NCBI GenBank assembly: GCA_004020315.1 | Contig: SAQG01000029.1 | Span: 1 to 64,000 of the forward strand | From: Mesorhizobium sp. | GTDB taxonomy: Bacteria > Pseudomonadota > Alphaproteobacteria > Rhizobiales > Rhizobiaceae | DNA: 64,000 nucleotides | Direction of reading: 5' to 3' | Part shown: positions 36,324-54,456 of the stretch, one piece after another | Numbering within the stretch: position 1 is the stretch's first letter | Layout of the letters: every line of letters begins with the position of its first letter | Program-made: the position numbers and the translations under genes | The notes under the pieces: generated by a model | What the model saw: only the letters and a program-made list of their open reading frames with translations | The model's database searches: none | What the model was told of the DNA's origin: nothing

Positions 36324-36349
36324 TTTCCAAGTCAAATTTACGGCGTTAG

Positions 36350-36469
36350 CGCTGCCTCTCATCCGGCTGCCGCCACCTTCTCCCCGTGAAGAACGGGGAG
36401 AAGGCGAAGCTCCGACGCTGGTGACCCCTTCCCCACGCTTACGGGGAGGGGGTAAGGGTGAGGCAGCGG
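36350..36469. repeat. Palindromic intergenic repeat with two internal hairpins
   Basis: A 120-bp element with inverted ends (CGCTGCCTC at left, GAGGCAGCG at right). Inside is a perfect 12-bp stem (CCTTCTCCCCGT, 36376-36387, with 36393-36404) and a second C-rich/G-rich hairpin around 36425-36452. It fills the gap between the CobW-type and WD40 genes and might attenuate read-through. Confidence 0.8.
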
Positions 36470-36493: not shown

Positions 36494-37468
36494 ATGCCGA
36501 CAGTCGCCCCGCTTGATCTCCAGGGACATTGCATCGCCGCCGTCTTCCTCGGCGACGTGCCGCATTTTGCGCTGGCCGACGGTGCCGTCCACCGGCTCGA
36601 TCATGGTCACAAGACGGTGCAGGCCAATGACGGCCTGCTCGCCGCAGTCTACGATGCGGCCAACGACCGGCTGATCACCGGCGGCGAGGATGGCAAGATT
36701 TTTTCGACTACCGCGGGCGGCAATGCAGCAGAACTGGCAAGCGCCGGCAAAAAATGGATCACCAGCGTTGCGGCTGGACCACAAGGCGCCATCGCCTATG
36801 CCTCGGGCAAGACCGCGTATGTGCGTTTCGCCGACGGCAAGACCAAGGAATTCTTGCACCCGCGTTCGGTCGAGGGGCTGGCGTTCTCGCCCAAGGGCAT
36901 GCGCTTCGGCGTCGCCCGCTACAATGGCGCGACGCTGCATTTCCCGGCGGCCGACGGCAAGCCAGTCGAGCTGGAATGGGCCGGCGCCCATACCGGCATC
37001 ACCTTCTCGCCGGACGGCGCCTTCCTCGTCACCACCATGCAGGAGAACGCGCTGCATGGCTGGAAGCTGGCCGACGGCAAGCACATGCGCATGAGCGGCT
37101 ATCCCGGTAAAGTCAAAAGCCTGTCGTGGAGCGCCAAGGGAAAATGGCTGGCCAGTTCCGGTGCGCCGGCGGCGATCGTCTGGCCTTTTTCGGGCAAGGA
37201 CGGGCCTATGGGCAAGGCGCCGCTGGAACTCGGCACGCGCGGCAACGCCATGGTGACCTCGGTCGCCTGCCATCCAAGCCAGGATGTCGTCGCCGTCGGC
37301 TATGACGACGGCATGGTGATGGCGGTGCGTTTCGCTGACGCCAAGGAGGTGCTGCTGCGCCGGCCGGGCAAGGGCGCCATCACCTCGATGATGTGGGACA
37401 AGGAAGAGCGCCGCGTCGCCTTCGGCAGCGCTGCCGGCGACTGCGGCGTCATCGATATTTCCGCATAA
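36494..37468 (+). CDS. WD40-repeat beta-propeller protein
   Basis: A 324-residue protein composed of about seven WD40-like blades. Segments such as LLAAVYDAANDRLITGGEDGKIFS, VEGLAFSPKGMRFGVARYNGATL, HTGITFSPDGAFLVTTMQENALHGW and VTSVACHPSQDVVAVGYDDGMV show the repeat. No signal peptide, so cytoplasmic. A WD40 protein next to a COG0523 GTPase is a recurring alphaproteobacterial arrangement; it may scaffold metal delivery, which is an inference. A palindromic repeat separates the two genes. It is convergent with the next gene (11 nt). Confidence 0.85.
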   Translation: MPTVAPLDLQGHCIAAVFLGDVPHFALADGAVHRLDHGHKTVQANDGLLAAVYDAANDRLITGGEDGKIFSTTAGGNAAELASAGKKWITSVAAGPQGAIAYASGKTAYVRFADGKTKEFLHPRSVEGLAFSPKGMRFGVARYNGATLHFPAADGKPVELEWAGAHTGITFSPDGAFLVTTMQENALHGWKLADGKHMRMSGYPGKVKSLSWSAKGKWLASSGAPAAIVWPFSGKDGPMGKAPLELGTRGNAMVTSVACHPSQDVVAVGYDDGMVMAVRFADAKEVLLRRPGKGAITSMMWDKEERRVAFGSAAGDCGVIDISA

Positions 37469-49561: not shown

Positions 49562-50554
49562 TCAGCCCGCCATTGCGGTGCCACGAGGGACGGGGTGTGG
49601 AGCGGCTCGCGCGCCAGCATGAGCGGCTAGCGCCGTCATGACCTCGGCCGCCGCAAGCGCCGCGATCACTTGCGGACGCTTGTCCTTGACCGCATCGGCG
49701 CCGATCGGCGAGACGAGGCGGGCAAATTCCGCCTCGCTTCCGTCTGCCGACTTCAGGAACCAGTTCCTGAATGTCGCCTTTTTGGTCTTCGAACCGATCA
49801 TGCCGACATAGGCGGCATCCCGGCGTTTCAGTGCCTCGGCAACGATCAGGAAATCCAGCGCGTGGTCGTGGGTTAGGATGACGAAGGCGGCCCCGGCCGG
49901 AGCCTCGCGCACCATTGCCTCGGGCATCGGCGTCAGGCTGGTTTGGACCGTGTCCGGCATGCCCTCCAGCGCCTCGGCCCGCGTCTCCACGACGACGGCA
50001 CGTACCGGCAGCAAGGCCACCGCCGATGCCAGCGCCTGGCCGACATGACCACCACCAAAGATGTAGACATGCGGCAGTTGCGCTTCCTCGGCTTCCGCCG
50101 CCTGAATCAGTTCGGCTTCAAGCGCTGCGTCGACCAGCCGGATCAAAACCTGAACCCTGCCGCCGCAGCACTGGCCGATTTCCGGCCCGAGCTGGATGTC
50201 GAGCGTGGCGCGGATATCCCTCCCCCTCGAGGGGAGGGTGGCGGCGAAGCCGCCGGGTGGGGTCGCCGCGGCAGTGCTCGACGCTCTAGCGGTGCCTTCT
50301 GAGACGACCCCCTCTGGCCGCTTCGCGGCCATCTCCCCCTCGAGGGGGGAGAAAAGCATCTGCCGTGCCTTGTCGATTGCCATGTATTCGAGTTGGCCGC
50401 CGCCGATCGTGCCAAAAATTGCTGCGCCAGAGACGAGCATGAAGGCGCCCTTCTCGCGTGGCGTCGAACCTTTCGTTGCCGCCACTTCGACCAGGGCGAC
50501 CCGGCCGGCGCGCGCAAGAAAAGCTTTCAGGCTTTGCACTTTCGCGTTCATCAT
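49562..50554 (-). CDS. xdhC: Xanthine dehydrogenase accessory protein XdhC with repeat-derived insertion
   Basis: XdhC binds molybdenum cofactor, helps its sulfuration and inserts it into xanthine dehydrogenase. About 330 residues: N-terminal VEVAATKGSTPREKGAFMLV and FGTIGGGQLEYMAIDKARQML, then GPEIGQCCGGRVQVLIRL, and the Rossmann part with HVYIFGGGHVGQALASA, DHALDFLIVAEALKRRDAAYVGMIGSKTKKATF. Residues 68-114 are not part of the family: they are encoded by a palindromic repeat (50213-50353) inserted in frame between KARQML and RATLDIQLGPE. Start at 50554, with AGGGA six bases before; ATG at 50560 is possible. Last gene of the uraH-xdhA-xdhB-xdhC operon. Confidence 0.92.
   Translation of the reverse strand: MMNAKVQSLKAFLARAGRVALVEVAATKGSTPREKGAFMLVSGAAIFGTIGGGQLEYMAIDKARQMLFSPLEGEMAAKRPEGVVSEGTARASSTAAATPPGGFAATLPSRGRDIRATLDIQLGPEIGQCCGGRVQVLIRLVDAALEAELIQAAEAEEAQLPHVYIFGGGHVGQALASAVALLPVRAVVVETRAEALEGMPDTVQTSLTPMPEAMVREAPAGAAFVILTHDHALDFLIVAEALKRRDAAYVGMIGSKTKKATFRNWFLKSADGSEAEFARLVSPIGADAVKDKRPQVIAALAAAEVMTALAAHAGARAAPHPVPRGTAMAG
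50213..50353. repeat. Palindromic repeat inserted in frame inside xdhC
   Basis: About 140 bp with inverted arms of roughly 45 nt. Each end is itself a palindrome around CCCCCTCGAGGGG (left near 50222-50234, right near 50334-50347); inward lie GCGGCGAAGCCGCC at left and GGCCGCTTCGCGGCC at right, then GGGGTCG against CGACCCC. It has no stop codon in the xdhC frame and encodes FSPLEGEMAAKRPEG and about 30 further residues. It looks like the intergenic repeat type frequent in Mesorhizobium, here inside a gene. Confidence 0.85.
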
Positions 50555-50626
50555 TCGCATTCCCTATCGGGAAATATAGAGTTTTCAGCCTGAATTGCAC
50601 GCATTCTGGGATTTCAAAGGCTGGAT

Positions 50627-52975
50627 TCACCTGCCGGTCTCGGCTTCCCTCTTCAGCCGTTCGATCGCCATCAGCACTCGCTCCGGCGTTGCCGGTGGGT
50701 CGAGGCGCGGGCAGATCCGGTGGTCGGCAACGCTCGCCACCGCATCCGACAGCGCATGCAGTACCGAAATGCCGAGCGGGAGAGGCGGCTCGCCGACCGC
50801 CTTGGAGCGGTGCACCGTCGGCTCGCTCGCTTCCGGCCAATCGGCCAGCGTCACGTTGAAGATTTTCGGCCGATCCGAAGCGAGCGGGATCTTGTAGGTC
50901 GACGGCGCGTGGGTGCGCAGCCGGCCCTTGTCGTCCCACCAAAGTTCCTCCGTCGTCAGCCAGCCCATGCCCTGGATGAAGCCGCCCTCGACCTGGCCGA
51001 GGTCGATAGCGCGGTTCAGCGAACGGCCGGTCTCGTGCAGGATATCGGTGCGCTCGACCATATACTCGCCGGTCAGTGTGTCGACCGAGACTTCCGAGCA
51101 CGCGGCGCCATAGGCGAAATAATAGAAGGGGCGACCCTCGCCCTTGTCGCGGTCCCAGTGGATTTTCGGCGTCTTGTAGAAGCCCGCCGCCGAAAGCTGG
51201 ATACGCGCCATGTAGGCCTGCCTGACGAGATCGGCGAAGGCGATTTCCTGGTTGCCGATGCGAACCCGGTTGGGCAGGAATAGCACCTGTTCGCGCGGCA
51301 CCTGGTATTTTTCGGCGGCGAAATTGGTCAGCCGCTCCTTGATCTGCCGGGCTGCGTTCTGCGCCGCCATGCCGTTGAGGTCGGAGCCGGACGATGCGGC
51401 GGTCGCCGAGGTGTTCGGCACCTTGCCGGTCGTCGTCGCGGTGATCTTCACCTGGTCGAGGTCGATCTGGAATTCTTCCGCCACAACCTGCGCCACCTTG
51501 ACGTAGAGGCCCTGCCCCATTTCGGTGCCGCCATGGTTCAGATGCACCGAACCGTCGGTGTAGACATGCACCAGCGCGCCGGCCTGGTTGTAATGCGTAG
51601 CGGTGAACGAGATGCCGAACTTGACCGGTGTCAGCGCCAGCCCGCGCTTGATGAAGCGGCTGTTGGCGTTGAAGGCTTCAATGGTGCGGCGTCGCCTTGC
51701 ATAATCGCAACTTGCCTCCAGCTCGGCGACGATGCGGCGGATGATGTTGTCCTCGACCGTCTGGTGATAGGGCGTGATGTTGCGGTCGCTCGTGCCATAA
51801 AAGTTCTTCTTACGAATCTCGAGCGGGTCCTTGCCGACGGCAAAGGCGACCTCTTCGATGACGCGCTCGGCCCCGACCATGCCTTGCGGACCGCCAAAGC
51901 CGCGGAAGGCGGTGTTCGACACGGTGTTGGTGTAGAGCGGCGCCGATTGCGCATGAACCGCCGGCCAGAAATAGGTGTTGTCGCAATGGAACAGCGCGCG
52001 GTCGGTCACTGGTCCTGAGAGGTCCGCCGAGAAGCCGCAGCGCGCCGCAAACATGAAATCGACACCGAGGATATTGCCCTCATCGTCGAAGCCGACCTCG
52101 TAGTCGACCAGAAAGTCGTGGCGCTTGCCGGTGGCGATCATGTCGTCGTCACGATCAGGCCGGATTTTGACGGCGCGATGATGTTTTTTCGCAGCAATCG
52201 CCGCGAGCGCGGCAAACTGGTTACCTTGCGTTTCCTTGCCGCCAAAGCCGCCACCCATGCGGCGGATCTCGACCGTGACGGCATGGCTCGGCACGCCGAG
52301 CGCATGGCTGACCATGTGCTGGATTTCGCTCGGATGCTGGGTCGAGGAATAGATGGTGACGTCCTGATCCTCCCCGGGAATGGCCATGGCGATCTGGCCT
52401 TCGAGATAAAAATGGTCCTGGCCGCCGATGCGCATTTTTCCCTTCAGCCGGCGCGGCGCCGCGTTGATCGCAGCCGTTGCATCGCCGCGTCTCAGGGTCA
52501 GCGGCGGCGTGACCAGCTTGTCCTTGCGGGGATCAAGCACGTCGATGTCGGTGACGAAGGGCAATTCCTTGTATTCGACCTTGGCCAGCCTCGTGGCGCG
52601 GCGTGCCTGCTCGCGGGTTTCGGCGATGACACAGAAAATCGGCTGGCCGAAAAACTGCACCTTGCCGTCGGCCAGCACCGGTTCGTCGTGACGGCCGGTC
52701 GGCGAAATATCGTTTTCGCCCGGCACGTCGCTGGCCGTCAGCACGTCGACGACGCCGGGCGCGGCGCGCACCGCCGACAGGTCCATGCTGGTGATGGTGG
52801 CGTGCGTGGCCGTCGAAAGCCCAAGGCAGCCATGCAGCGTACCGGCCGATTCCGGCATGTCGTCGATATAGACGGCCGTTCCGCGGACGTGCTTATGCGC
52901 GGAATCATGGCGCTGGTTGGTGGCAACGCCACCGGAGATTTTTTGCGCCTTGAGGTTGGGAGCGTGCGTGGTCAT
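50627..52975 (-). CDS. xdhB: Xanthine dehydrogenase large (molybdopterin) subunit
   Basis: A 782-residue Mo-cofactor subunit that hydroxylates hypoxanthine and xanthine to urate. Visible motifs: GGQDHFYLEGQIAMA, RRMGGGFGGKETQ, the substrate Arg region NTAFRGFGGPQGM, GGTEMGQGLYVKVAQVVAEE and the catalytic Glu region SKAVGEPPLPLGIS. Its start overlaps the xdhA stop by one base. XdhC, needed for its cofactor sulfuration, is encoded downstream after 72 nt. Confidence 0.96.
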   Translation of the reverse strand: MTTHAPNLKAQKISGGVATNQRHDSAHKHVRGTAVYIDDMPESAGTLHGCLGLSTATHATITSMDLSAVRAAPGVVDVLTASDVPGENDISPTGRHDEPVLADGKVQFFGQPIFCVIAETREQARRATRLAKVEYKELPFVTDIDVLDPRKDKLVTPPLTLRRGDATAAINAAPRRLKGKMRIGGQDHFYLEGQIAMAIPGEDQDVTIYSSTQHPSEIQHMVSHALGVPSHAVTVEIRRMGGGFGGKETQGNQFAALAAIAAKKHHRAVKIRPDRDDDMIATGKRHDFLVDYEVGFDDEGNILGVDFMFAARCGFSADLSGPVTDRALFHCDNTYFWPAVHAQSAPLYTNTVSNTAFRGFGGPQGMVGAERVIEEVAFAVGKDPLEIRKKNFYGTSDRNITPYHQTVEDNIIRRIVAELEASCDYARRRRTIEAFNANSRFIKRGLALTPVKFGISFTATHYNQAGALVHVYTDGSVHLNHGGTEMGQGLYVKVAQVVAEEFQIDLDQVKITATTTGKVPNTSATAASSGSDLNGMAAQNAARQIKERLTNFAAEKYQVPREQVLFLPNRVRIGNQEIAFADLVRQAYMARIQLSAAGFYKTPKIHWDRDKGEGRPFYYFAYGAACSEVSVDTLTGEYMVERTDILHETGRSLNRAIDLGQVEGGFIQGMGWLTTEELWWDDKGRLRTHAPSTYKIPLASDRPKIFNVTLADWPEASEPTVHRSKAVGEPPLPLGISVLHALSDAVASVADHRICPRLDPPATPERVLMAIERLKREAETGR

Positions 52976-54456
52976 CACGCCGCCTCGTGCCGCGAAAGCT
53001 GGATCGGCGCCTTGGTGCCACTGGTCTCGGCAAAGAAGCGCAGCAGCAGGTTGCGAGCCGCCAGTGCCCGGTATTCGGCGCTCGCCCGCATGTCGGTCAG
53101 CGGGGTGAAGTCTTTGGCGTACTCGGCCATGGCCGCCTCGACCGTTGCCTCCGTCCAAGGCCTGCCGAGCAGCGCCTTTTCCACGCCGAAAGCCCGCTTC
53201 GGCGTTGCCGCCATGCCGCCATAGGCGATGCGGATATCCGCCACCGTGCCGTCCTTGGCCAGGGTCAGCAGGAACGCGCCGAGTGCTGCGGTGATGTCCT
53301 CGTCACGGCGCTTGGTGATCTTGTAGACGGCAAATTTCGTGTCCCTGGCAGGCACCGGGACGTGCACGGCCTCAACGAATTCACCCGGCTGCCGGTCCTG
53401 CTTGCCATAGGCGATGAAGAAGTCTTCAAGCGGGATCGTCCTCCGCTTGTTGCCGCGGCGCAGCGTCAGCCGCGCACCCAAAACGATCAGCGGCGGCGGC
53501 GTGTCGCCGATCGGCGAGCCGTTGGCGATATTGCCGCCTATGGTGCCCATATTGCGCACCTGGTCGCCGCCAATGCGATCGAACAGCGGGCCCAGCGCCG
53601 GGATGCGTTTCGCCAGCGTCGAGAAAGCCTCGGTGTAGGTGACACCAGCGCCGATCGAGATGATGCCCTTGTCCTCGGAAATCGTGCACAGCCCGTCGAG
53701 ATTGCCGACGAAGATCGCCGGCGAGATCTCGCGCATGTGCTTGGTCACCCACAGGCCCACATCGGTCGAACCGGCAACAATGGTGGCGCCCGGCTCCTTG
53801 TCGAGTACGGCGGCGAGATCGTCGATATTCGCGGGCACGACCAGCCGCTGCTTACCGGCGCCGATCTCGATGCGCGCACCGTCTTTCATGGCCGCGAGCT
53901 TCTCGGCGATCGCCTTGCGCTCCGCTGCCAGCGGGTCCTTTGCCGCCTTGCCATAGCTGGAGATGGCGCGGGCGGCCCGTATGATCGCTTCGTACCCGGT
54001 GCAGCGGCAAAGATTGCCCTGCAGTGCCTTTTCGATGGCCGCATCCGACGGCTCCGGCGCTCTCATCCACAACGCGTAAAGCGACATGACGAAACCCGGC
54101 GTGCAGAAGCCGCATTGCGAGCCGTGGAAATCGACCATCGCCTGCTGCACCGGATGCAGTTTATCGCCGTCGCCGCGCAGATGTTCGACGGTCACGACAT
54201 GCGTGCCATCGAGCGAGCCAAGGAATCGGATGCAGGCATTGACGCTTTCATAGACCAGCCGGCCGCCTGACAGCCTTCCGACCAGCACGGTGCAAGCGCC
54301 GCAGTCGCCCTCGGCGCAGCCTTCTTTGGTGCCGCGCAGCGAGCGCTCGAGCCGCAGCCAGTCGAGCAAGGTCTCGTCGGGCGCTACCATGGTCAGCGCA
54401 ACGTGCTCGCCATTGAGGATGAAGCGTATCTCATTGCGTATCTTGAGCCCGGCCAT
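52975..54456 (-). CDS. xdhA: Xanthine dehydrogenase small (FeS/FAD) subunit
   Basis: A 493-residue subunit carrying two [2Fe-2S] clusters and FAD. First cluster: GTKEGCAEGDCGACTVLVG. Second: SQCGFCTPGFVMSLYAL and NLCRCTGYEAIIRAA. FAD domain: ATIVAGSTDVGLWVTK and GGDQVRNMGTIGGNIANGSPIGD. It passes electrons from the Mo site to NAD+. The ATG lies three nucleotides after the uraH stop, with the ribosome site GAGGAA inside the uraH end. Confidence 0.96.
   Translation of the reverse strand: MAGLKIRNEIRFILNGEHVALTMVAPDETLLDWLRLERSLRGTKEGCAEGDCGACTVLVGRLSGGRLVYESVNACIRFLGSLDGTHVVTVEHLRGDGDKLHPVQQAMVDFHGSQCGFCTPGFVMSLYALWMRAPEPSDAAIEKALQGNLCRCTGYEAIIRAARAISSYGKAAKDPLAAERKAIAEKLAAMKDGARIEIGAGKQRLVVPANIDDLAAVLDKEPGATIVAGSTDVGLWVTKHMREISPAIFVGNLDGLCTISEDKGIISIGAGVTYTEAFSTLAKRIPALGPLFDRIGGDQVRNMGTIGGNIANGSPIGDTPPPLIVLGARLTLRRGNKRRTIPLEDFFIAYGKQDRQPGEFVEAVHVPVPARDTKFAVYKITKRRDEDITAALGAFLLTLAKDGTVADIRIAYGGMAATPKRAFGVEKALLGRPWTEATVEAAMAEYAKDFTPLTDMRASAEYRALAARNLLLRFFAETSGTKAPIQLSRHEAA

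Follow-up and report, generated by a model that had tools for sequence, protein, structure and literature searches.

The locus described here raises the question of how a dispersed palindromic repeat came to lie within the reading frame of a conserved gene, and whether the protein that carries it still works. The gene is xdhC, found in a 64,000-nucleotide stretch of a Mesorhizobium sp. contig (SAQG01000029.1, positions 1 to 64,000; hereafter the window), and the features of the locus are as follows.

49562..50560, minus strand: xdhC, xanthine dehydrogenase accessory protein, 332 aa, a single open frame across the element.
50216..50354, minus strand: type-A palindromic element, in-frame in xdhC, giving the peptide FSPLEGEMAAKRPEGVVSEGTARASSTAAATPPGGFAATLPSRGR at residues about 70-114.
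50305..50354, minus strand: first half-unit on the gene strand, with terminal palindrome TCTCCCCCCTCGAGGGGGAGA, hairpin GGCCGC-GAA-GCGGCC, then GAGGGGGTCG; 75.2 bits with the covariance model.
50216..50265, plus strand: second half-unit, inverted, with terminal palindrome CCCTCCCC-TCGA-GGGGGAGGG and hairpin GGCGGC-TTC-GCCGCC (gene-strand letters); 75.8 bits with the covariance model.
50627..52975, minus strand: open frame which we take to be xdhB, its start at MTTHAPN picked by eye.
52975..54456, minus strand: open frame of 493 aa which we take to be xdhA.

The names xdhB and xdhA are provisional and do not rest on a profile. XdhC itself was assigned as an equivalog of TIGR02964 (281.2 bits vs a cut-off of 161.6, E 7e-84), with the profile match split into two stretches. 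A first-pass annotation, made from the sequence alone, had claimed that a palindromic repeat of roughly 140 bp lies inside xdhC without breaking the frame, and this held, the element spanning about 139 bp in one open frame. Its placement of the added residues at 68-114 (50213-50353) also held with a small correction, to about F70-R114 (50216-50354). The linker reads KARQML-FSPLEGEMAAKRPEGVVSEGTARASSTAAATPPGGFAATLPSRGR-DIRATLDIQL-GPEIGQCCGG, where DIRATLDIQL represents ten further linker residues between the repeat-derived part and GPEIGQCCGG.

Read along the xdhC strand, the element runs TTCTCCCCCCTCGAGGGGGAGATGGCC...GGCGGCTTCGCCGCCACCCTCCCCTCGAGGGGGAGGGAT and is a double-hairpin repeat that adds about 45 linker residues to XdhC. 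It is composed of two units of about 50 nt in inverted order which flank a loop, each unit comprising a terminal palindrome, a small GC-rich hairpin and GGGGTCG. When 150 nt around the element were folded with RNA parameters (+ strand), a single long hairpin of -101.7 kcal/mol was obtained. We rejected an Rfam identity for the element, as the best match, MIR1858, reached 37.5 bits against a gathering threshold of 137 and all matches were far sub-threshold. The Rfam matches are mostly to eukaryotic microRNA families, which we attribute to the element being a long hairpin that draws such matches.

A 150-bp BLAST query taken from the element returned 74 matches in this genome at E<=10, including three near-full-length copies besides the window's own (84-86% identity, E 4.4e-41 to 3.7e-34), so the element is not a chance palindrome. 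A covariance model of the half-unit, built from 29 sequences (alignment A1), found 138 matches in this genome at E<=0.1. The xdhC half-units at 50305-50354 and 50216-50265 are the fourth and first best of these matches genome-wide, ranks that are partly by construction since both belong to the 29 source sequences. Had the element proved unique in the genome the first-pass reading would have been refuted; its dispersal in both searches means that it was not. We grouped the 138 matches by hand into 71 clusters, leaving out some weak matches, and 48 of the clusters are at least 100 bp long. Copies may be missing from this count because the covariance model scored 150 of 6817 first-look candidates. 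Nor do the 71 clusters amount to one clean family, since the model also gathers a sister repeat with CGCCCC ends (which includes the ABC-ATPase copy described below) and B-like copies such as the one in hrpB.

Family A, to which the window's element belongs, is dispersed, as are families B, C and the low-copy D. At E<=0.001, family B gave 79 matches in genome G029 and 21 in this genome, family C gave 72 in G001, 67 in G093 and 33 in this genome, and family D gave 5 in G133, 2 in G145 and 1 in this genome. These figures are matches and not copies, with the two strands of one palindrome counted separately. Family C, which in certain relatives occupies the xdhC linker, also has an intergenic copy in the window.

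36350..36463, plus strand: intergenic family-C copy (E 9.1e-23), flanked by a stop near 36324 and a start at 36495.

More relevant to the origin of the insert is the state of the same linker in relatives. We took 110 XdhC loci, of which 108 were readable (all except L096 and L122) and 97 were distinct in the gene core. The linker is 21-37 residues long in 42 of the 97 distinct genes and 47-96 residues long in 55; by class, 42 are short, 37 carry family A, 8 family B and 4 family C, with 6 classed as other. A shared insertion in all XdhC homologs would have refuted the first-pass reading, and the 42 short genes leave it standing. Its claim that the insert adds residues to the linker held only in part, as certain relatives have the repeat substituted for part of a different linker, so that it is not a simple addition. 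Because these loci (L031-L140) are the top hits of a search with an insert-bearing query, inserts are over-represented among them, and we also drew a 1-in-4 sample of the genus, taking every fourth genome (37 stretches from 36 of 146 genomes). After exclusion of G097 (contig end), and without counting L229 (contig edge) and L235 (N run), both of which have apparent family-C sequence, 35 linkers were readable. Repeat-derived peptide was found in 20 of these 35 (A 14, B 4, C 2) and the remaining 15 linkers are 27-39 residues long. The pattern used to read linkers detects in-frame linkers only. In L235 (genome G057) the N run falls within the apparent family-C element, and such repeats may break assemblies of xdhC.

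On a tree of the xdhC core without the linker (97 distinct genes), at least 30 changes of linker class are needed in total: 8 for the 8 genes with family B, 4 for the 4 with family C, and 18 for family A, while long versus short alone requires at least 21. For example, L076 (family C) groups with L040 and L042 (family A) at 100/100. The bootstrap of the tree as a whole is unsettled, and the tree comes from one gene core, so that recombination between species could inflate the apparent changes. Family A lies in a single direction in 37 of 37 genes; family B is forward in 6 and reverse in 2, family C is forward in 4, and two of the linkers classed as other hold C in reverse. Some B orientations are weak because B is nearly palindromic (in L104, 68 vs 63.5 bits). 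A single orientation for A and both for B and C fit one or few old A insertions followed by repeated later replacement. In three loci (L130; L254 1553-1639; L257 1546-1635) the low-copy repeat D, about 85 bp, is nested in the A element of xdhC and is still in frame. By eye, the linkers of L085, L078, L083, L091 and L092 hold remnants that look like two joined element ends, and we infer that short remnants of this kind are scars of lost elements. Only L085, the one short linker among 42 that matched a reference repeat by BLAST, has support beyond inspection, so the scar reading of the other remnants rests on eye. Together, the empty sites and the turnover of families show that elements have landed in the xdhC linker repeatedly, and that they came from several repeat families.

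It could be argued that XdhC has a native loop of low complexity that evolves fast, and that the long linkers are this loop and merely resemble GC-rich repeats. In favor of this, two of the 55 long linkers (L111 and L118) match no repeat reference, and the linkers of the short form vary in length too (21-37 residues). Against it, the other 53 match a reference repeat by BLAST at E<=1e-3, with B and C in both orientations, and the same repeats are dispersed in intergenic DNA and in other genes. Among control stretches from the window only 5 of 300 matched: two showed family C, over 33 and 119 nt, and the other three matched along just 14-19 nt. Given the dispersed copies, we take the native-loop explanation as refuted for families A, B and C, and it is all but excluded overall.

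The second question is what the repeat-derived sequence in the linker does to the protein. An AlphaFold2 model of XdhC (49 aligned sequences) has a mean pLDDT of 83.1, with residues 74-113 below 50 and most others high, and places the insert between a helix at 55-69 and a strand at 117-124. A natural short-form XdhC was modelled at a mean pLDDT of 90.1, and its helices and strands follow one another in the same order. The solved structures that best match the XdhC model are 3on5 (TM 0.63) and 2we8 (TM 0.41). These models predict that the insert is a disordered loop and that the rest of the fold is as in the natural short form.

The first-pass annotation had offered two outcomes, that an active XdhC tolerates a surface loop or that the insert inactivates it. 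In support of inactivation and a gene on its way out, the insert is long and lies close to the GQCCGG motif. The counter-evidence is as follows: insert-bearing genes keep a single open frame (exactly one frame was matched in all 110 XdhC loci), GQCCGG and the other invariant columns are kept in 49 of 49 aligned rows, 12 of them insert-bearing, and the core of 23 insert-bearing genes has pN 0.111 against pS 0.412. Further, family A is common to many species. We consider inactivation very unlikely. That XdhC remains functional despite the insert is our inference from purifying selection, conserved motifs, the unchanged predicted fold and the open xdhA and xdhB frames upstream; there are no activity data, and the tolerance of the loop by an active protein is supported by inference only.

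Within the insert, loop and hairpin arms evolve differently. In the 23 insert-bearing genes the loop has pS 0.204 and pN 0.177, and with a pN/pS of about 0.87 it appears nearly free at the protein level. The arms have pS 0.096 and pN 0.052 (pN/pS about 0.54, from only about 24 silent sites), a silent-site divergence about fourfold lower than that of the gene core. Because even silent sites are held in the arms, the arms are held at the nucleic-acid level, although some protein-level constraint is not excluded. Divergence at fourfold sites of the core is tracked by the loop (rho 0.46) and not by the arms (rho 0.05), in 24 genes whose pairs are not independent. Pairing in four local hairpins is kept in 95.7% of cells. 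Covariation is weak: both sides have changed in 4 cells, which belong to 2 pairs; 23 of 500 shuffles also reach 2 such pairs, and slid versions give up to 3. The conservation of the arms could be explained either by selection on the hairpins or by copying from other elements, and these cannot be distinguished here. A bolder reading, possible but less likely than not, is that the elements are still being maintained as nucleic acid in their coding copies, with the XdhC linker as an exchangeable slot for several of them. If this is true, the stretch is translated and at the same time subject to a function at the DNA or RNA level or to ongoing copying from dispersed masters.

In-frame copies in this genome were identified by a codon-usage scan of the cluster flanks together with profile searches. 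Of the 71 clusters, sixteen passed the codon-usage test and 55 failed. Ten of these sixteen are in frames that belong to a conserved family, including L194, which sits in the tail of a Suv3-like helicase, a tail without an assigned family, and is listed apart. The other nine are in-frame elements of the wider repeat class in seven conserved genes: xdhC, glyQ, glyS (two elements), a fused hydantoinase A/B gene (two elements, in opposite orientations), cobN, hrpB and an ABC-transporter ATPase gene. All four near-full-length copies of the window's subfamily are inside these host genes. GlyQ, GlyS, CobN and HrpB score above NCBIfam cut-offs, while the hydantoinase and the ABC protein do so for Pfam only. 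The ABC-ATPase copy is located between what we take to be Walker A and the Q-loop. Several candidates were set aside as hosts: C133:215990, where the frame has NIR_SIR domains directly before the element, and C34:89341, C130:14026 and C9:69531, which showed no protein family. C166:99047 and C70:38912 were left out of the host count without a profile search. The first-pass annotation, which considered xdhC alone, had understated the case, as the class is in-frame in six further conserved genes and unrelated families occupy the same linker in relatives.

The glyQ insertion also has empty sites. A glyQ match was found in 60 of 61 genus genomes, with the element at the same place in 7 (own included) and absent in 53; of 30 loci, 28 were readable, 7 filled and 21 empty. 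An empty site reads AGAP-ASNDNLPM-HRMVFPAYDQ and a filled one AGAP-FSPLEG...KGEGY-HRLVFPAYDQ, the element replacing eight codons. Together glyQ and glyS hold three in-frame elements (L165 2707-7245, own genome C80), and two more half-unit matches lie between them (C80:535261-535310 and C80:535737-535787). In CobN (L171 2421-5921) a second stretch, GGATEHQPSSLANSRHFPF... from residue 513, looks on inspection like a decayed copy of the sister repeat found in the ABC ATPase.

Beyond this genome, type-A peptide matches at E<=1e-5 were found in 19 of 37 genomes, own included. Stop-free frames of at least 300 residues contain 59 of the 72 A-peptide rows, but long frames may be spurious in GC-rich DNA. 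Profile searches show as a further host a UvrB (L320 499-3897, above cut-off), with a type-A element at residues 106-152 within an N-terminal extension of about 250 residues; the uvrB loci L304 and L308 are cut and score under the cut-off. In a UvrD/PcrA-like helicase (L318 1962-4850) the type-A element is in-frame between LVDEYQDTN and CVGDDDQS. Its best profile is PcrA at 767.6 bits, under the cut-off of 911.2, and the same flanking motifs identify L317, L319, L323 and L324 as the same host. Two pyruvate dehydrogenase E2 hosts (L316 and L322, above cut-off) carry elements at different places.

These data make it very likely that a dispersed, non-autonomous palindromic repeat became part of xdhC, with tolerance of the loop and turnover of families. 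The element occupies the loop that joins the last helix of the N-terminal XdhC/CoxI part to the strand before GQCCGG. In the mechanism we propose, this loop tolerates additional residues and the element has no stops in the reading frame it is given, so that frame-keeping copies survive as a disordered loop. An old family-A insertion would since have been passed on, altered, reduced to in-frame remnants, invaded by a second repeat, or exchanged for B or C, and the same process would have placed elements in other conserved genes, including both glycyl-tRNA synthetase subunits. Known marks of transposition were not seen: no consistent target-site duplication emerged among 40 copies whose ends were taken from the model (the glyQ site shows the eight-codon replacement), and a search for the Y1 (RAYT-type) transposase PF01797 gave no match in this genome at E<=0.001, while the same search was positive in 5 of 14 control genomes.

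A hot spot could also arise at the DNA level, if further palindromes tend to insert or recombine there because of the linker DNA itself or of a palindrome already present. This is supported by the presence of at least three repeat families plus nested elements at one place, the CTCCCC/GGGGAG ends shared by A and B, which make exchange by recombination possible, and the three loop versions of A, which change at least seven times on the tree. On the other hand, insertion points differ by several codons among families and lineages with no common target word (by eye), elements in other hosts lie at sites unlike xdhC, and a tolerant protein loop suffices. We judge a DNA-level target unlikely and infer that the hot spot is due to tolerance by the protein.

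Protein-coding palindromes have been known mainly in Rickettsia and Wolbachia, which live inside cells and have small genomes, and are now seen in the soil genus Mesorhizobium. Because most of Mesorhizobium can be cultured and its available genomes number well above a hundred, one can follow from species to species how elements are gained, lost and replaced, and test this experimentally. The genes glyQ and glyS and the uvrD/pcrA-like gene would be expected to be essential or central to repair. Inserts in these genes show the extent to which protein loops tolerate new sequence. In the open-access literature searched, which did not cover the intragenic-REP supplement of PMC3733652, we found no report of in-frame palindromes in Mesorhizobium, and priority is unsettled.

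Among known repeats, the intragenic GTAG/CGTC REPs are similar in being palindromic, within genes and often dimers (PMC3733652), and their authors suggest that linkers or loops may tolerate them (PMC3733652). That survey covers Bradyrhizobium, also of the Rhizobiales, with no Mesorhizobium in its main text (PMC3733652). REP units, however, are 20-40 bp with GTAG or CGTC tags, whereas the Mesorhizobium elements are double hairpins of about 140 bp. The RIME, Sm-repeats and AB/C palindromes of Sinorhizobium (PMC2573895) and the CIR of Caulobacter and Brucella (PMC2229807) are likewise mosaic palindromes, many of them intergenic like most clusters here. They differ in being described as intergenic; CIR is stated to be absent from genes and has stops in all six frames (PMC2229807).

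The closest likeness is to the Rickettsia palindromic elements (RPE), which the first-pass annotation had also proposed, and both anatomy and in-frame habit fit by analogy. RPE are dispersed stem-loop repeats of about 100-150 bp, as is the Mesorhizobium element, are often in-frame inside conserved, unrelated genes, a feature met here too, and occupy solvent-exposed sites in their host proteins (PMC10969869, PMC2229807, PMC3767692). The Wolbachia elements (WPE) are again protein-coding palindromic repeats in an alphaproteobacterium (PMC3767692, PMC3733652, PMC2229807). A guanylate kinase carrying an RPE is reported to be active with a changed substrate affinity (PMC2229807), and R. conorii uvrB is a palindrome host (PMC3733652), as is the UvrB with a type-A element in the Mesorhizobium relative (L320). 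By analogy, and with no sequence comparison to RPE or WPE, the Mesorhizobium elements work like these coding palindromes. They differ from RPE in that Mesorhizobium is a free-living member of the Rhizobiales and that several families of repeat replace one another within a single codon interval. For RPE-4, RPE-6 and RPE-7 of R. japonica, the choice between hot spots and one diverged insertion was left open, with a common origin favored (PMC3767692). The xdhC linker of Mesorhizobium bears directly on this question, for here several families have landed at one site.
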